This document shows positions 2,713 through 26,742 of a DNA stretch of 26,846 bases, one piece after another. A program made the position numbers and the translations under genes. A model generated the notes under the pieces. That model was not told where the DNA came from, ran no database searches, and saw only the letters and a list, made by a program, of their open reading frames with translations. Within the stretch, counting starts at the first letter, position 1. Each line of letters starts with the position of its first letter. This DNA is from a virus, in IMG/VR virus record IMGVR_UViG_3300031566_000309, positions 1 to 26,846 of that record, one strand, 5' to 3'.

Positions 2713-3137
2713 TAAAACCCGCTCATCTTGTCGCGATCGAAGATCCTCTTGTTCGACGAAATGCTAACCGTATTCGGCGTATTTGCCGGCGCCGGCGTTG
2801 CAGCTCCCAGCCTGATCTTTCCGTCCCTGACCGCTTCCAGGAACCGGATCGCCTCCTTGTGCCTGTCCTTGCGCACCTCGGGCGCGGCGTCCCCGCGCCT
2901 GGAAAAGAGATTATAGATGGCGATATCCACGCTGACCTGGCGGATCTTGTCCGGTACCGGCGAAAGAGGAATCGTGTACCTGTCCTGGCAATAGGCGTCT
3001 ATGGTGCCGTCCGCGTCCTCGATCGCCTTGATCACTTTGTCCGCGTCCACCGCACCTGCGCCCGCGTCATCCGTCAGCTGGATAAGGACGGCCTCGTCGA
3101 CCTGGTCCAGAATGTCGTCCTGTATGCAATAGGCCAT
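2712..3137 (-). CDS. Mu gp36-like protein (DUF1320)
   Basis: This 141-residue protein begins MAYCIQDDILDQVDEAVLIQ and has the DUF1320 pattern: an N-terminal acidic helical part, VIKAIEDADGTIDAYCQDRY, then PLSPVPDKIRQVSVDIAIYNLF and a KDRHKEAIRFLEAVRDGKI segment. DUF1320 proteins are the gp36 homologues of Mu-like phages and resemble head-completion adaptors that bridge portal and tail. It follows the gp35-like gene directly, with a one-base gap, as expected in the conserved gpT-35-36-37 series. Confidence 0.85.
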   Translation of the reverse strand: MAYCIQDDILDQVDEAVLIQLTDDAGAGAVDADKVIKAIEDADGTIDAYCQDRYTIPLSPVPDKIRQVSVDIAIYNLFSRRGDAAPEVRKDRHKEAIRFLEAVRDGKIRLGAATPAPANTPNTVSISSNKRIFDRDKMSGF

Positions 3138-20709: not shown

Positions 20710-21666
20710 TTAATCGCCCATCAAAAACTTTTCCGACTCCATCAGAAGCGGGAGCCCGAGAGGGTTGCCGTATTGCTCGTTGATCATCATCGCAACGTCC
20801 AGAAGGTTGGTAACGTAGCGGTACCGGCCCTGGCCTTTGGCGCGGGCGGCCAAAAAATCTATGCATTCCCCATCCAGGCCGGGGCAGTGACTCTCCGCGA
20901 TGGCCCGCGTGTCTTTTTTGGATATCCTGAATTTGTCCCGCTTCATCGCGATCCGGCTGTAGATCTGATCGAACAGGTACGCACGGCCCTCCGTCCCTTT
21001 CATCTGCTCATAGAGCCGCTCCTGGCCGACATATACGATGCCGAGACAGGCGCAATCGTGCAGCTTCCTGACGAGCTCGAAGGCCTCCCAGCTCAAAAAA
21101 TGGGCGTCGTCTATTATAAGGAGCCTGTTCGTGCCCTTGAGCCTCGCGATCAGCGCCTGGAGATAATCGCTGACACTGCTCTTCCGGCCCACGCCGCCGA
21201 CCTGCTCGATGACCCTGCGCAGAATCTGCGACGGCGTCTTCGTGGTGATGTCGGCGGTAACGAATACCGTGGCGCGATTTACCCTTTTATATTCCTTGCA
21301 CGTCTCCGTTTTCCCGGTGCCCGACGGCGCCAGGGCGGCGCCCATTTTTTGCTTCTGGTCGCAAAACTGGAGTACCTCCCAGATAAGCGTGGAGGCATTC
21401 GTCGTGACGAATTCCTTCGGGCCGGAGACAAACTGCAGGTCCTCTTCGCGCTCCAGGAGATTCTTGATATCCTTCTCGACCTCTTGCACGTTCCCGGCAT
21501 AGATCCGGTTGACGTACTGGCTGACGGCCGCCGTGGATCGGTTGATCATCCCGGCGATGCCCTTCAAGCTTCTCCCCGATTGGTCTTTCCAAAGGCAAAA
21601 CCTGTCGTGCAGGTTCTCGTCGTAAACCTTGCTTAAATCTTCTTTTACTGCCGGTTCAACAGTCAT
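20710..21666 (-). CDS. Transposition target-capture AAA+ ATPase, MuB family
   Basis: This is a 318-residue protein, MTVEPAVKEDLSKVYDENLH onward, with AGGAGG upstream. An N-terminal Cro-like helix-turn-helix (about 34-60, LKGIAGMINRSTAAVSQYVN) is followed by the ATPase: Walker A APSGTGKT at 113-120 and Walker B LLIIDD at 182-187, with a sensor-like VYVGQERLYEQ. MuB binds target DNA nonspecifically as an ATP-dependent filament and delivers it to the transposase, giving target immunity. The gene follows the transposase gene by 42 bases, as in all Mu-like phages. Length matches MuB (312). Confidence 0.93.
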   Translation of the reverse strand: MTVEPAVKEDLSKVYDENLHDRFCLWKDQSGRSLKGIAGMINRSTAAVSQYVNRIYAGNVQEVEKDIKNLLEREEDLQFVSGPKEFVTTNASTLIWEVLQFCDQKQKMGAALAPSGTGKTETCKEYKRVNRATVFVTADITTKTPSQILRRVIEQVGGVGRKSSVSDYLQALIARLKGTNRLLIIDDAHFLSWEAFELVRKLHDCACLGIVYVGQERLYEQMKGTEGRAYLFDQIYSRIAMKRDKFRISKKDTRAIAESHCPGLDGECIDFLAARAKGQGRYRYVTNLLDVAMMINEQYGNPLGLPLLMESEKFLMGD

Positions 21667-21708: not shown

Positions 21709-23667
21709 TTATTCATCCTCGTCCCGCACCGGATCGTTGATGGTCAGCCTCATGATCGGCCTGGGTTTTTCCGGCGGGGGCGCCGGCTTAAAGGTTAACG
21801 GCCGGTATCCCGGGCCGGAAACGGCCCGGAGCTGCGCTCCCTCCAGCTGGGTCCGCAAAACCCTGATCTTCGATTCCCGGTCTCTCACTTCCCTTGCCTC
21901 CCTCTCGTGAGGGTGGATCCTGGGCACGTGAGTCTTCGGTGTTTTCTCCGGCAGCCACAGCCGGTATTTCTGCGAAATCTGCTTTACCAGCCGGTTTTGC
22001 ATTTCAATTTTGGCGGCCACCTGGTCGCGATTCTTGGGGTTGATCATTCCCCACTCCTCGGCCCGGCACAGCAAGCTCCCCGAGGCCCGGCTGAAGATCC
22101 ATACCCGGCCGGGATCGAACGGATGATACCGCACGAACACCTCGGTACCGCCGTAATCGGCGAGCTCCGGCCCATAATAGGTGAGGGTCCGCTTGAAAAA
22201 CTCGTGCCTGATTTTAACCTGGCTGCGCTTGACGGTGAGCGGTTTGCCGTTGCCGTTTACGGCCTGGACGGGAAGGAAGATGTACTCGAGCACCTCCTCC
22301 GAAAGGGTCGTGACCGGGTACCGGGAGACGCTCTCGTTGTAGAGCTGCCGCGGGGTTTTTCCGGTGTCCTCGCCGCGATTCTTGAAGACGTGGTCGTTTT
22401 GTCCTTCGATCATGGCAAAAATCCGGTCGACCATCTCCTCTATGCCGAGGAGCTCCCCGGCCCGGATCATCTCGGTCAGCTCCTTTTGCTGGAGCTCGCT
22501 CTCGCGTGCATCTTTGAGGCGCTTGCAATACCCCGGGATCCGTTCGTTGCGGAGCACCTTATCGAACCTGCCGAACCAGCCCTCGATGGGTTTTGCCTGC
22601 GGGTGGCGGGGTTTCGCGCGTGTGTGCTGGATGGTCCCCGTCTTGATCCCGAGACCCGTGAGCTGTTCGATGAGCGAGGCCGTGTAATTGCTTTCCTCCG
22701 GCTTGCCCCAGTCGGTGTATAATTCGCCCGGCATTCCCCATCTCACGGCATTGATAAGGGCCTGCCCGACCGTGTATCTGTTATAGTGCTGGTACGCCAC
22801 CGCTCCCCAGGTCATCTGGGTGCGGAAGTCCATCCAGCAAAACAGCTCCAGGGTCGCGACGTCGCCCTTGTAATCGAAGCAGCAATAATCGGCCTTGTGC
22901 TGATCTCCTACGAGGCACTCCATCGCCCTGTAGGCTGTATGGTCCCTCCGGATCGCCGGCACTACGTCCTCCCTCAGCCCGCGGCCGCCCTTGTCCCGGT
23001 ATATAATAAGGCTGTCCGCGACCCTGCGGTGCAGGTTGCAGAACGACTCGTAGCACCCCACCTTGAGCCCTTTTTCCCTCGCCGTCCTTTGGATCCGTTT
23101 ATATGTGGAGCGCTTTTCCTGGTGTCCCCGGCGGTTTGCGATAATCTCCTCGATGGCCATGTGCGCAGCGTCATGATCCCAGGCCCGGACCGTGATCCCG
23201 AGGCTCTCGATCCTGACCCCGAAATTTCTGGTGGAAGAGATAATCTCCGCGCCTTTTTTTACCCTGTCCATAAGCCTGTACGCCGTGGCCACGTTGTACC
23301 CGTACTCCTCCGCGATATATTTGATCCTGGTTTTCCGGCCCCCGACCCAGTGCGGTACCGCCAGGCAGTCGCACAGCATCCGGATCTTTGTGGCCACCGC
23401 CGGGTCTTTTAATTTTTCCGGCGGAACCTTGACCTCGAAATAAGCGGCCGCTTCCTCCACGCTGTCCTCGTCGATGCCGCATCTGTGCCGCATGATCCGC
23501 TCCTGCACCTCCGCCGGCAGTCGGTCTAAAAAAAACCGCCTCTCTCGGCGGCCGCTAATGATTTCATGCGGCCATTTTTCCTTATTCGCTTTACCCATCG
23601 CCGCCTGTTTCGTTATCCCCAACACCTTCGCGATCTCTTTCGCGCTCACCAGCTCCGATCCGCTCAT
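21709..23667 (-). CDS. DDE transposase, MuA family
   Basis: This is a 652-residue protein, MSGSELVSAKEIAKVLGITK onward. The N-terminal winged-helix domain (about 1-60, ending RERRFFLDRLPAEVQERI) reads the internal enhancer in Mu. End-binding helical domains follow (about 80-225). The catalytic core has Asp255 in LVGDQHKAD, Asp319 in LYTDWGK and Glu362 in KPIEGWFGRF, the DDE triad with spacing similar to MuA. A beta-barrel and a basic C-terminal tail (for MuB/ClpX contact) end the protein. The ATG overlaps the preceding stop (ATGA). It should carry out integration and replicative transposition. Confidence 0.95.
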   Translation of the reverse strand: MSGSELVSAKEIAKVLGITKQAAMGKANKEKWPHEIISGRRERRFFLDRLPAEVQERIMRHRCGIDEDSVEEAAAYFEVKVPPEKLKDPAVATKIRMLCDCLAVPHWVGGRKTRIKYIAEEYGYNVATAYRLMDRVKKGAEIISSTRNFGVRIESLGITVRAWDHDAAHMAIEEIIANRRGHQEKRSTYKRIQRTAREKGLKVGCYESFCNLHRRVADSLIIYRDKGGRGLREDVVPAIRRDHTAYRAMECLVGDQHKADYCCFDYKGDVATLELFCWMDFRTQMTWGAVAYQHYNRYTVGQALINAVRWGMPGELYTDWGKPEESNYTASLIEQLTGLGIKTGTIQHTRAKPRHPQAKPIEGWFGRFDKVLRNERIPGYCKRLKDARESELQQKELTEMIRAGELLGIEEMVDRIFAMIEGQNDHVFKNRGEDTGKTPRQLYNESVSRYPVTTLSEEVLEYIFLPVQAVNGNGKPLTVKRSQVKIRHEFFKRTLTYYGPELADYGGTEVFVRYHPFDPGRVWIFSRASGSLLCRAEEWGMINPKNRDQVAAKIEMQNRLVKQISQKYRLWLPEKTPKTHVPRIHPHEREAREVRDRESKIRVLRTQLEGAQLRAVSGPGYRPLTFKPAPPPEKPRPIMRLTINDPVRDEDE

Positions 23668-23873
23668 CTCATGTCTCCAATCTTCCTGGCATGCTCCTTG
23701 CAATCCTTATTATATATACCGCCCCGCGTTTTAGGGATTGCGATCCCCTCTCTTTTCAGGGTGGCCTCAGTAACCATACTGTGATTCAGTTCGCCTCCCT
23801 CTACGATATATGTGGCTACTGGCTCTTTACCCTCGACTTCCCACCATGCTAAAAAAACCGCCGTTGGCCTCAT
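23664..23873 (-). CDS. Small early protein upstream of the transposase
   Basis: This is a 69-residue protein, MRPTAVFLAWWEVEGKEPVA, then TYIVEGGELNHSMVTEATLK and a basic end with one Cys. It starts with ATGA overlap to the preceding gene and ends with ATGA overlap to the transposase, so it is fully embedded in the early operon. No family is recognised. Position before A is like the small semi-essential genes of other transposable phages. Confidence 0.65.
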   Translation of the reverse strand: MRPTAVFLAWWEVEGKEPVATYIVEGGELNHSMVTEATLKREGIAIPKTRGGIYNKDCKEHARKIGDMR

Positions 23874-24379
23874 TTGCTGCCCTCCATCTCCCTCAAAAAT
23901 AACATCCTCTTTTTCTTCCGTGCCTGGGCCTCCCGGATCTCCTCGTCCAATTTTTGTATCTCGGCCCGCAGGGCCTCCGGCCCCGGCATGCTAAAAATTC
24001 CGCACGGCGTGCCCAGAACCCTGAGCGGCTCCACGCTCCCCGTCGCCTGGCAGAACGCCGGCAGGTACTCCGCCGGGATGTGCCTCCGGACCCACCGGTC
24101 TTCATCATCCCCCTGGACCCCGATCTCCGCCCTCTGGTCTTCCCTCGTCCAGGAATAGATCTGCTCCCTGGTGATTGTTTCATTGAGGAGGTGGCTCATC
24201 TCGCCCGCGATCTGGTGCACGGAAAGAGGGCAGTCCTTTATGGCCGCCCTCATTGAGCCTCGTAGATTTTCGATTATTCTGAATTGTCCGCCGGTGGGTG
24301 ATGATGCGGTGAAATGCTCTTTGACCAGGTCAAAGATGGTGAGCTGATTTTTGTCGATTCTTCGCCGTGATTTAGACAT
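23870..24379 (-). CDS. Early protein of unknown function, possibly DNA-binding
   Basis: This is a 169-residue protein, MSKSRRRIDKNQLTIFDLVK onward. The start at 24379 has AAAGG seven bases away, better than the ATG at 24385. Sequence blocks: NLRGSMRAAIKDCPLSVHQI, then AGEMSHLLNETITREQIYSW (a helix-turn-helix-like part), RHIPAEYLPAFCQATGSVEP, and a C-terminal coiled coil. The same plan occurs in early regions of Mu-like phages of Gram-negative bacteria, in my memory, without assigned function. Confidence 0.7.
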   Translation of the reverse strand: MSKSRRRIDKNQLTIFDLVKEHFTASSPTGGQFRIIENLRGSMRAAIKDCPLSVHQIAGEMSHLLNETITREQIYSWTREDQRAEIGVQGDDEDRWVRRHIPAEYLPAFCQATGSVEPLRVLGTPCGIFSMPGPEALRAEIQKLDEEIREAQARKKKRMLFLREMEGSK

Positions 24380-24394
24380 TGACATGCCTTTTAA

Positions 24395-24414
24395 ATGGTT
24401 TAATAATAAACCAT
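24395..24414. promoter_or_regulatory. Perfect 8-4-8 inverted repeat between Ner-like gene and next early gene
   Basis: Arms ATGGTTTA (24395-24402) and TAAACCAT (24407-24414) flank ATAA. No T-run follows, so an operator or RNA hairpin near the ribosome site of the next gene is more likely than a terminator. It occupies nearly the whole 39-base gap. Confidence 0.5.
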
Positions 24415-24418
24415 GAAG

Positions 24419-24652
24419 CTAAGCGGTCTTTTTATTGGCGCGCCTTTTTGCGACGGCAAGGTAATGCTCATGAAAGATCACATGGGGATCCCGATCGATC
24501 CTCTCGGCCACCGCCCGCATGATCCGGTCCGATACCATGATCTTGCGGACCACAATTGAGACGGCCATCTCGGACACGCCGAGATCCCTGGCGATCTCCT
24601 TCTGTCGTATGCCTTTTTTCTTGAGCGCCGCCTGTATGTCGGCAGGATGCAT
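24419..24652 (-). CDS. ner: Ner-like helix-turn-helix early regulator
   Basis: This is a 77-residue protein, MHPADIQAALKKKGIRQKEI, then ARDLGVSEMAVSIVVRKIMV and a basic end. The helix-turn-helix (about 15-40, QKEIARDLGVSEMAVSIVVR) and the small size match Ner of Mu-like phages, a lambda-Cro-like repressor that shuts down early and repressor transcription after infection. It precedes the transposase operon and lies about 960 bases from the repressor. The gene is separated from the divergent plus-strand gene at 24684 by only 31 bases. Confidence 0.82.
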   Translation of the reverse strand: MHPADIQAALKKKGIRQKEIARDLGVSEMAVSIVVRKIMVSDRIMRAVAERIDRDPHVIFHEHYLAVAKRRANKKTA

Positions 24653-24683
24653 TTTACGTAACCTCTTTATTGGGTGATAAAAT

Positions 24684-24866
24684 ATGGATGATACTCAGCT
24701 TCTTAAAAACATCTTTACCGCCCAGGTCCTGATCCTCGCGAATCAGATTAAGGCGGAGAAAAAAGCAAAAGGCACCACGAGCACAAGCGATTTTACTGCC
24801 GAAGCAATCAACCTGATTGAGCAGAAAAGAGCTCAGATACTCCGAACTCTTCGGCAATCGCCTTAA
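24684..24866 (+). CDS. Small plus-strand protein of the early control region
   Basis: This is a 60-residue protein, MDDTQLLKNIFTAQVLILAN, then QIKAEKKAKGTTSTSDFTAE and AINLIEQKRAQIL. The composition (helical, evenly charged) is that of a real protein, and GGGTGATAAAAT lies before the ATG. It runs opposite to the early operon: its start is 31 bases from the Ner-like start, and its end overlaps the minus-strand gene at 24808 by 59 bases. No family recognised. Confidence 0.6.
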   Translation: MDDTQLLKNIFTAQVLILANQIKAEKKAKGTTSTSDFTAEAINLIEQKRAQILRTLRQSP

Positions 24867-25023
24867 ACCTCGGGCTCTTAATGTGAACCTCGTGCGCTGA
24901 TAAAATGATGTTCTCGGCACGGTCCAGGACCGGCCGCACCTGGTTCATGGGCACGCCCTCGAATAACGAGGCGACCATGAAAGCGACCCCTTCGAACTCT
25001 TGGTCATCGAGATATCTGGCCAT
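24808..25023 (-). CDS. Small early protein, unknown
   Basis: This is a 71-residue protein, MARYLDDQEFEGVAFMVASL, then FEGVPMNQVRPVLDRAENII and HEVHIKSPRFKAIAEEFGVS. GGAGG lies ten bases upstream of the ATG. The sequence is protein-like with two helices. It would be in the first part of the early transcript. Its 3' end overlaps the plus-strand gene at 24684 by 59 bases. No family recognised. Confidence 0.6.
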   Translation of the reverse strand: MARYLDDQEFEGVAFMVASLFEGVPMNQVRPVLDRAENIILSAHEVHIKSPRFKAIAEEFGVSELFSAQSG

Positions 25024-25059
25024 TTTTCATTAACCTCCTGAAAAAAGGTGATTAAAATT

Positions 25060-25224
25060 ATGAAAAAAAGTGACGCTATAACTTTGGCGGCCCGTATCGT
25101 TGAGCGCCTGATTGATTCTGGTAAGCTCAATCTAGATTTGGACGTAAACGCCAGCCCAAAAAAGATTCTTACTATTACCGAGGCCATCGCCAAAGGGCTT
25201 ATCGAGATCGAAAAAAAGCTTTAA
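25060..25224 (+). CDS. Small plus-strand protein of the early control region
   Basis: This is a 54-residue protein, MKKSDAITLAARIVERLIDS, then GKLNLDLDVNASPKKILTIT and EAIAKGLIEIEKKL. AAGGTG lies nine bases before the ATG. It is convincing as a protein. Its start is 36 bases from the divergent gene at 25023 and its stop overlaps the convergent gene at 25221 by four bases. No promoter room is visible on either side. No family recognised. Confidence 0.58.
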   Translation: MKKSDAITLAARIVERLIDSGKLNLDLDVNASPKKILTITEAIAKGLIEIEKKL

Positions 25225-25376
25225 TCATGGGGATAGTCCCTGATTATTAGCCTGGGAGCTAATGCCTGCACAAACAGCCTGAGCACGAAAATCGGATCCT
25301 CCGTATCGTCCAGATCGAGGTCTTTGAAAGCATCTACGAGTTTCTTAGCTTTTTCGAGCCGCTCTTTTGGGTCCAT
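25221..25376 (-). CDS. First gene of the early transcript, small acidic protein
   Basis: This is a 51-residue protein, MDPKERLEKAKKLVDAFKDL, then DLDDTEDPIFVLRLFVQALA and a basic end. GAGGAG is eight bases from the ATG. A strong minus-strand promoter lies about 60 bases upstream, so it should be the first product of the early operon. Acidic helix followed by a hydrophobic helix. No family recognised. Confidence 0.62.
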   Translation of the reverse strand: MDPKERLEKAKKLVDAFKDLDLDDTEDPIFVLRLFVQALAPRLIIRDYPHD

Positions 25377-25438
25377 GATGAATGCTCCTCTTAGAAATAG
25401 GTTTATTTATTTTTTTCCGCTTAGATTTAGTTATATAT

Positions 25439-25468
25439 ATTATAACGGCACCTTTTTAGAAAAGTAAA
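25439..25468 (-). promoter_or_regulatory. Early promoter (Pe-like)
   Basis: On the minus strand TTTACT (25463-25468) is 18 bases from a perfect TATAAT (25439-25444). A second TTTACT is five bases further upstream. A CTTGTCGAT site at 25480-25488 abuts the -35 region, consistent with repressor control. It would drive the genes from 25376 through the transposase. Confidence 0.65.
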
Positions 25469-25479
25469 GTAAAAAAACG

Positions 25480-25599
25480 CTTGTCGATCGTTTTTTTTTG
25501 GAAACCAGCAAAAAAATTTAACTAGTTAAAATCATTAGACAATTTCAACCTACACCCACTTGTCGATCAACTTGTCGATTCCGTAGCCTAATCGACAAG
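25480..25599. promoter_or_regulatory. Operator array of four CTTGTCGAT sites
   Basis: Direct copies lie at 25480-25488, 25559-25567 and 25571-25579, and an inverted copy (ATCGACAAG) at 25591-25599. The last pair forms an inverted repeat with ten-base arms and a nine-base spacer. The second and third are 12 bases apart. They stand between the early promoter and the repressor gene, as expected for repressor/Ner operators. A 12-bp palindrome TTAACTAGTTAA also lies in the gap. I found no clear sigma-70 promoter for the repressor here. Confidence 0.7.
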
Positions 25600-25615
25600 C
25601 AAAATAGGACTAAAA

Positions 25616-26146
25616 ATGAGCATCGGCGACCGCATAAAAATGGTACGAGGGACGTTAACTCAAAAGCAATTTGCACTAAAAATAGGTGCTGGCCAGAGGT
25701 CTATCTATTCATGGGAAGTTGGTCATGCTGCACCCGGTGCAAAATCTCTTGAGGCAATCCACAGGGTATTTGGCGTTGACATACATTGGCTTTTAACGGG
25801 GGAAGGTGAGCGGTATATCAAGAAAGACGATAGTCAGGAAAATGATTTACCCCAGGCCCATGAATCGCTGGCAGAATATTCCGCAGACGCCCCCGGGCTC
25901 GGCCAGGCCGTGGAGATGCTGGCAACGATCCTTGGATCAGGAAACCAGGTATTTTCCCAGGCGGTGATGTCCAGCTTGAGGGCATCTGCTGCTGCTCTTA
26001 ATATAATGAAGCAGCGGAATCAGCAGATGGCCACCCTGGTGTCTGAGCTCAATGACTTTCGTAAACGCCTGGCCGCCCTGGAGGAACAATTTCAAAAGGA
26101 GCCGGAGGTAGAAAAGGGGGAGAATTTAGAAAAGAAACCAATGTGA
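25616..26146 (+). CDS. Lysogeny repressor, XRE-family helix-turn-helix (c-like)
   Basis: This is a 176-residue protein, MSIGDRIKMVRGTLTQKQFA onward. The helix-turn-helix (about 12-60, LTQKQFALKIGAGQRSIYSW, then SLEAIHRVFGVDIHWLLTGEG) is typical of phage repressors of this class. A hydrophobic middle and a C-terminal coiled coil (MATLVSELNDFRKRLAALEE) probably dimerise. No LexA-type Ser/Lys protease is visible, so RecA cleavage is not expected. AGGA is six bases before the ATG. It is the divergent gene next to the operator array, as the Mu c gene is. Confidence 0.82.
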   Translation: MSIGDRIKMVRGTLTQKQFALKIGAGQRSIYSWEVGHAAPGAKSLEAIHRVFGVDIHWLLTGEGERYIKKDDSQENDLPQAHESLAEYSADAPGLGQAVEMLATILGSGNQVFSQAVMSSLRASAAALNIMKQRNQQMATLVSELNDFRKRLAALEEQFQKEPEVEKGENLEKKPM

Positions 26147-26241: not shown

Positions 26242-26742
26242 ATGTCATTAATAACTTGCCCGGAATGTAAGAAAAAAATCAGTGAAAATGTCACTGCTTG
26301 TCCTCACTGCGGATATCAATTTACACCAGAAAAAATTGAAGAGCTTAAGAAGGCGGGCTCAAAGTTGGATAAAGGATGTTTAATCTCTCTTGGGGTTATT
26401 GGTCTTTTTGCTGCTCTTATTTTTATTTTCATACCTATGTATATACTTAACCCTGACAAAGCCAAAACGAAAAAAACTGACCCGCGAACAGAACGAATAG
26501 AAAAGCAATTTAATTCTTGGGACGGCTCCCACATCGGGCTCACAAAACTTATTAAAGCTTCAATGAACGACCCCTCGTCTTATAAACATGTCGAAACCGG
26601 GTACATCGACCAGGGTGATTATTTACTCGTTAAAACCACCTTCCGAGGTAAGAATAAATTCGGCGGCGTCGTTAAAAACTGGGTTTCCGCAACGGTAGAT
26701 TTAAACGGAAAGGTCCTTGAGATTATCGACCAGGGACCATAA
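26242..26742 (+). CDS. Zinc-ribbon membrane protein, probable moron
   Basis: This is a 166-residue protein, MSLITCPECKKKISENVTAC, then PHCGYQF, with zinc ligands Cys6/Cys9/Cys20/Cys23. A membrane helix is at about 46-69 (CLISLGVIGLFAALIFIFIP). The C-terminal domain (about 85-166) contains SMNDPSSYKHVETGYID, then TTFRGKNKFGGVVKNWVSAT and a final beta strand. This C-terminal type occurs in many small bacterial membrane or lipoproteins of unknown role. AGGAGG stands before the ATG. It is AT-rich and lies beyond the repressor, where lysogenic-conversion genes are usual. The 95-bp gap before it has no clear promoter. Confidence 0.7.
   Translation: MSLITCPECKKKISENVTACPHCGYQFTPEKIEELKKAGSKLDKGCLISLGVIGLFAALIFIFIPMYILNPDKAKTKKTDPRTERIEKQFNSWDGSHIGLTKLIKASMNDPSSYKHVETGYIDQGDYLLVKTTFRGKNKFGGVVKNWVSATVDLNGKVLEIIDQGP

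Follow-up and report, generated by a model that had tools for sequence, protein, structure and literature searches.

The 26,846-nucleotide stretch of DNA analysed here (the window), an IMG/VR virus record, carries two convergent pairs of small genes inside the early operon of a Mu-like phage, downstream of a putative antisense promoter at the start codon of a CII-like regulator gene. We consider it probable that a lysogenic transcript of the lambda PRE or Fc02 pC1 type reads through these two accessory antisense pairs, that the early transcript opposes it, and that immunity or exclusion-type proteins of the lysogen are set against early partners. The arrangement is most likely a noncontiguous operon; by gene positions, the predicted lysogenic genes stand opposite to and inside the early operon.

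The window belongs to a Mu-like (transposable) phage, as identified by matches to a MuA-type transposase and a MuB ATPase; MuA-based genome scans found no host genome. Both convergent pairs sit between the candidate early promoter Pe and the Ner-like gene, with 25221-25376 as the first and 24808-25023 as the second gene of the early operon, and the CI-like repressor gene is read by the presumed lysogenic (plus) strand. The features are given below in window coordinates.

20710-21666, minus strand: MuB-like transposition ATPase (phrog_296, 1.7e-57; 29% identity to phage Mu B, 84% of query)
21709-23703, minus strand: MuA-like transposase (Pfam Mu-transpos_C, 4.7e-10; phrog_310, 4e-55)
23870-24379, minus strand: CII-like regulator (phrog_2345, 1.3e-22; ATG at 24379, ORF open to 24385)
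24379-24407, plus strand: putative antisense promoter (PRE/pC1-like), TTGACA-17-AATAAT (11/12 consensus), its -35 beginning on the regulator ATG
24395-24414: palindrome ATGGTTTAATAATAAACCAT with the -10 at its centre, a possible operator for the antisense promoter (p=0.015 against shuffles)
24419-24652, minus strand: Ner-like HTH_35 gene, 77 aa, in the cro/ner position (Pfam HTH_35, 1.3e-8; phrog_769, 7.8e-12)
24653-24683: divergent start region of 31 bp between the Ner-like gene and 24684(+)
24684-24866, plus strand: antisense gene of pair 2, 60 aa, weaker Shine-Dalgarno sequence GGGTGAT
24808-25023, minus strand: sense gene of pair 2, 71 aa, Shine-Dalgarno sequence AGGAGGT
25024-25059: divergent start region of 36 bp with back-to-back ribosome sites (AGGAGG on the minus, AAAGGTGAT on the plus strand)
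25060-25224, plus strand: antisense, presumed lysogenic-strand gene of pair 1, 54 aa, Shine-Dalgarno sequence AAAGGTGAT
25221-25376, minus strand: early-strand (sense) gene of pair 1, 51 aa, Shine-Dalgarno sequence AGAGGAG
25439-25468, minus strand: candidate early promoter Pe, TTTACT-18-TATAAT (10/12 consensus), the best sense-strand candidate
25480-25600: presumed repressor operators CTTGTCGAT, four copies flanking Pe (25480, 25559, 25571 and inverted at 25591)
25616-26146, plus strand: CI-like repressor, 176 aa (Pfam HTH_3, 2.7e-9; Phage_CI_repr, 1.3e-5; phrog_8, 6e-19)

Four small genes and their coding evidence

The four tiny genes are real, as indicated by their ribosome sites, their coding-like composition and signs of protein-level selection in relatives. 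ORF length alone is uninformative in this region, where several other ORFs of 42-88 aa overlap. The GC content at the second codon position (GC2) of the four genes is coding-like at 0.25-0.37, compared with 0.42-0.62 in overlapping control ORFs. For 24808 a dN/dS of 0.27-0.28 was obtained, while in 24684, 25060 and 25221 pN was about 0.33-0.35 against a pS of 0.73-0.85 that is close to saturation (25221: pN 0.33, pS 0.82; 25060: pN 0.35, pS 0.73). This pattern is consistent with purifying selection in all four genes, and in the selection comparison the annotated frame scored highest among the six frames. The initial annotation had thus correctly described four genuine interleaved genes in the early operon, with the right coordinates, strands and codons and with convergent overlaps of 59 bp (24808(-)/24684(+)) and 4 bp (25221(-)/25060(+)), and the comparison of frames in relatives that it proposed as a check on amino-acid selection came out in favour of the genes. 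The two distances between divergent starts also have the sizes it gave. The 36-bp gap separates 25060(+) from 24808(-), two of its four genes; the 31-bp gap, in contrast, lies between 24684(+) and the Ner-like gene, outside these four.

Homologues were found for each protein. The 24684 protein matches the profile of phrog_22129 (E=1.6e-13, residues 5-56 of 60) and is modelled as two helices by single-sequence prediction (pLDDT 78). Paralogy between 24684 and 25060 was not detectable, single-protein scans of viral contigs with these two proteins gave no matches, and neither did a phage tblastn with 24684. Searches of family libraries returned no named function for any of the four proteins, and an Rfam search returned no matches. 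Divergent starts similar to that at 25024-25059 occur in the related loci L003 (1755-1805) and L005 (60-115). At 25024-25059 and 24653-24683 of the window and in several relatives, start codons about 25-36 bp apart diverge over a shared back-to-back Shine-Dalgarno stretch, which forms a compact bidirectional ribosome-site element. Directly behind the repressor and on the same strand lies a gene for a zinc-ribbon membrane protein (UPF0547, phrog_3403; 26242-26742), which would share the plus-strand transcript, like e4 behind repc in Fc02.

Gene pairs among related phages

The relatives compared are, like the window, virus contigs of IMG/VR. The 25221/25060 pair is common to the window and L003, where the two homologues (1452-1607, 48-51% identity, E=2e-16; 1604-1762, 44% identity, E=2e-10; a single comparison each) are arranged convergently as in the window and also overlap by 4 bp; the MuA of L003 is only about 50% identical to that of the window. 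In L063 the 24684 homologue (49% identity, E=5e-11) converges on another gene with 80 bp of overlap, and the C-terminal half of that gene bears a weak resemblance to 24808 (E=0.04, 1/2000 shuffles, to be taken as a rough guide value). This pair is found downstream of the regulator, not upstream of it as in the window. The 24808 homologue of L062 (28% identity, E=3e-5) faces an antisense ORF 16 bp away; outside the family itself, no six-frame ORF matches the 24684 profile better than this one (E=0.07, 0/2000 shuffles). L063 and L062 therefore appear to keep 24808/24684-like pairs, the evidence being weaker for one partner in each.

Other relatives carry different cargo. L089 retains 24808 (76% identity), while a deletion removed the first 34 codons of 24684(+); this single gene in a single relative is the extent to which plus-strand frames were found broken, an outcome that the initial annotation had named as speaking against its reading. 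In L077, which also has 24808 (73% identity), the place of 24684 is taken by an antisense YjzC-like gene at 2838-3020 (PF14168, E=2.9e-10). L025, L077 and L089 share a third pair (MNAIEIV.../MKTKIIN...). Between L077 and L089 this pair is 100% identical in DNA, although the 24808 genes of these two phages differ at a pS of 0.37, which makes a recent exchange of the whole pair probable. A different antisense gene fills the same slot in L014, and a further one does so in L059 and L074. Two other phages have antisense genes for phrog_1244 proteins in their early regions (L036, 8-508; L044, 1466-1834). Taken together, the convergent pairs seem to be kept or swapped largely as units among relatives, and their staying head-on while moving between phages suggests that the opposition itself is selected.

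It is possible, though we rate it on the unlikely side, that the antisense promoter serves the repressor only, in a pure PRE function, and that the small plus-strand frames are passengers without a role in the switch. L015 and L023 carry the promoter, the HTH gene and the repressor without antisense genes, and many other relatives leave little room for them; the small genes are therefore dispensable and look accessory. The variation of the antisense genes among relatives and the lost gene start in L089 point in the same direction. However, the plus-strand frames are under apparent selection and have ribosome sites, and the pairs are retained or exchanged as units, which argues that they are not inert; they may still be cargo that leaves the decision between lysis and lysogeny unaffected.

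The joint movement of the pairs, together with the shifted position of the 24684/24808-like pair in L063, would also be expected if each pair were its own toxin-antitoxin or effector-inhibitor module whose convergence is incidental to the switch, and tha/ith of phage 80alpha is such a pair (PMC11087260). We nevertheless regard this explanation as unlikely. The four proteins gave no match to toxin, antitoxin or defence families (Pfam, PADLOC). Classical toxin-antitoxin genes are, moreover, usually co-directional.

An antisense promoter motif at the regulator start

The reading that we prefer, a lysogenic transcript across both pairs, starts from the putative promoter at 24379-24407. The Ner-like gene and the CII-like regulator are separated by a 33-bp gap that holds this site, one gene outside the interval 24653-25376, and only its -35 touches the regulator start. 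It is the top antisense-strand site in 1,950 bp of early region, a score reached in 4/200 shuffles (window alone). No plus-strand site upstream of the repressor scores higher by the matrix used (13.4, compared with 7.3 for the best candidate of a repressor promoter Pc). Its counterparts in five further phages rank first or second among the antisense-strand sites of their early regions. The D3112-like phage MP29, which has a phrog_2345 regulator, showed no antisense promoter at the regulator junction among its best-scoring sites.

To build a promoter profile, 80 loci with a phrog_2345-type regulator were collected and 49 non-redundant loci were used; regulator starts were placed and usable loci chosen by hand, and a locus was left out if it had no upstream sequence or if its start could not be set at the match. 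About 13 loci with a different regulator N-terminus do not have the motif. In the 49 phages the -35 columns read T1.00 T.98 G1.00 A.67 C.59 A.53, followed after 17 nt by -10 columns of T.82 A.76 T.39 A.41 A.41 T.51, and the TG position of an extended -10 has G at.63. Considered by itself, the -10 is separated from other positions in the same regions with a KS p=3e-29 across the 49 loci, a value that overstates independence as these loci share descent. Moving the anchor by 3-9 nt lowers the mean -10 score from 3.4 to less than -0.5, and the combined -35/-10 site falls in the top 1% of its own region in 48/49 loci. Ner-like homologues immediately precede the regulator in many loci.

TGTCAATG alone was considered as proof of the -35 and dropped, given that across 83 loci only the CA before the regulator ATG is near-universal. 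Because this CA may be translational, the promoter argument rests on the independent -10: the -1/-2 columns beside the ATG could partly reflect translation, which the -10 cannot.

The initial annotation had concluded that coding sequence must contain the plus-strand promoters. This conclusion is not supported, since one transcript from the site in the 33-bp gap could serve both plus-strand genes. That the plus-strand genes are instead driven by promoters of their own inside the opposing coding sequence, separate from the repressor transcript, seems quite unlikely to us. The gaps are indeed too short for a promoter plus a ribosome site, and a 9/12 site (TTAACC-17-TAAAAT) is found at 25030-25058 before 25060; however, this site, the best candidate for an additional internal promoter, is equalled or beaten in 52/200 shuffles and overlaps the ribosome site and start region of 25060. 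Farther upstream, both genes have a conserved plus-strand promoter that scores far better, and no terminator was found in the intervening DNA. No plus-strand terminator-like hairpin was found in 24400-25640. It is very improbable that the TTG... motif at the regulator start is a translation signal and not a promoter. In favour of a translation signal, the -1 A and -2 C hardly vary, even in loci that depart from TTGACA at its other positions; against it, a -10 and an extended -10 G stand at 17-nt spacing in the same loci in a phase-specific manner, while the position of the Ner stop varies widely.

Palindromes comparable to the one centred on the -10 occur at the same place in L077, L089, L051 and L059. 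The antisense promoter may be shut off by a regulator that binds as a dimer, and the Ner-like protein is one possibility. A half-site of the repressor operator at 24351, near the antisense promoter, was rejected as an operator, because L077 and L089 retain it in conserved IDK codons although their own operators read GTGTTGCG. The operators of these two phages lie at 1014-1131 (L089) and 1912-2031 (L077), and their spacing is similar to that in the window, with two direct copies 12 bp apart, one inverted and one 79-91 bp off. The operator sequence changes despite this similar spacing, from CTTGTCGAT in the window to GTGTTGCG in both relatives. A perfect A-tract/T-tract inverted repeat (AAAAAAACG...CGTTTTTTT, 25471-25497) encloses the operator nearest to Pe just upstream of the Pe -35 and may act as an UP element.

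The MP29 member of the regulator family also matches phrog_101, a 'CII-like activator' (6.8e-6). The structural model of the window regulator predicts an HTH region and a long C-terminal helix, which are YdaT-like features; in Foldseek the model gave POU/XRE domain matches only, weak ones with all E>1, and a PDB sequence search with the regulator found no match to phage CII or YdaT.

Proposed mechanism and known systems

From the genes, their pairing, the promoter motif and its conservation, all supported by sequence, we infer the transcription, the read-through into the repressor, the exclusion effect and the protein functions in the following model. During lysogeny or its establishment, the sigma70-type promoter at 24379-24407 would produce a plus-strand RNA. 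Starting at about 24414, this RNA would cross the Ner-like gene in antisense, encode the 24684 and 25060 proteins and continue into the repressor at 25616, with read-through from 25224 to the repressor as an assumed step. In the lytic cycle, Pe (25468-25439) would direct a minus-strand early RNA encoding 25221 and 24808, followed by the Ner-like protein, the regulator, MuA and MuB. As the initial annotation had pointed out, the gene layout means that this early transcript must read both plus-strand genes as antisense. Since the lysogenic and early RNAs would run antisense over the same genes, the two transcripts are expected to oppose each other along their length, by promoter occlusion, polymerase collision or double-stranded RNA, with one protein per pair made in each state. 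The plus-strand proteins are most likely accessory proteins of immunity or exclusion type expressed in the lysogen, and the minus-strand partners are most likely early proteins which, once the phage is induced, take their place or counteract them. The mutual-exclusion circuit between lysis and lysogeny that had been suggested for these genes fits the layout and has precedents in Fc02 pC1/pE (PMC9936078) and 80alpha tha/ith (PMC11087260); the effect itself is plausible on these grounds.

In 49 diverse phages an equivalent antisense promoter, recognized by its motif, always coincides with the CII-like start codon, so that a lambda PRE layout would hold generally across this phage group. Opposite early genes one could then search for accessory proteins expressed in the lysogen, which gene callers may miss because their genes are short and antisense. 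We tentatively extend this to many Mu-like phages, while considering the extension doubtful: they may hold an exchangeable slot for convergent antisense pairs in which a lysogenic-strand immunity or exclusion effector meets a head-on early partner as its dedicated inhibitor, with the one conserved promoter arming the effector together with the repressor and induction disarming it through antisense RNA and protein.

Three known systems bear on this proposal. In Staphylococcus aureus, tha/ith of 80alpha is an antisense prophage pair for which the inhibitor role has been demonstrated (PMC11087260). As in the noncontiguous operon of tha-1/ith-1, a predicted lysogenic-strand gene is opposed here by a small overlapping gene, and the two states would be mutually exclusive. 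In contrast to 80alpha, where the antisense gene interrupts the cI operon, it is the early operon that is interrupted in the window. No HEPN or other defence domain, as in tha/ith, was found in the four proteins (Pfam, PADLOC).

In phage lambda, PRE is an antisense promoter at the cro/cII junction that reads over cro into the repressor. A PRE/pC1-like feature is present in the window at the level of sequence, as a promoter motif at the ner(cro)/CII-like junction aimed at the repressor, and an antisense promoter at the junction of the cro and cII positions also occurs as PRE933P in CP-933P with YdaT (PMC9986795). Unlike lambda PRE, the promoter of the window is near consensus, may work without an activator and would carry protein-coding antisense genes. 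The two systems also differ from ours in that homology of our regulator to CII or YdaT is not established, the fold E-values all being above 1.

The closest parallel is Pseudomonas phage Fc02, a relative of B3 (Beetrevirus). Strand-specific RNA-seq of Fc02 revealed one lysogenic transcript from the distal promoter pC1 through antisense ORFs into repc, and both Olg1 and the opposing gp10 exclude superinfecting phages (PMC9936078). Its authors stated in 2023 that they knew of no earlier description of such a promoter, either in B3-like phages or in other Mu-like ones (PMC9936078). In B3, the best antisense promoter and an olg1 frame lie between gene 10 and the gene annotated as CII-like activator. 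The cargo of the window is different and apparently unrelated: B3 olg1 belongs to phrog_7132, a tblastn with B3 Olg1 found no match in the window or related loci, and none of the cargo proteins belonged to phrog_38063, the PHROG family by which homology to gp10 was assessed. The B3 regulator belongs to phrog_101 and ours to phrog_2345, and the B3 promoter lies in a 127-bp gap, whereas here the -35 sits on the regulator ATG. The opposed genes of Fc02 overlap almost fully and form one set, whereas those of the window overlap at their 3' ends and form two. What the window has in common with Fc02 and B3 is a Mu-like phage with a distal promoter beyond ner near a CII-like gene, and, as far as can be predicted, with pC1 of Fc02 an RNA that is antisense to early genes, encodes small proteins and reads into the repressor, opposed by early genes that are themselves coding.
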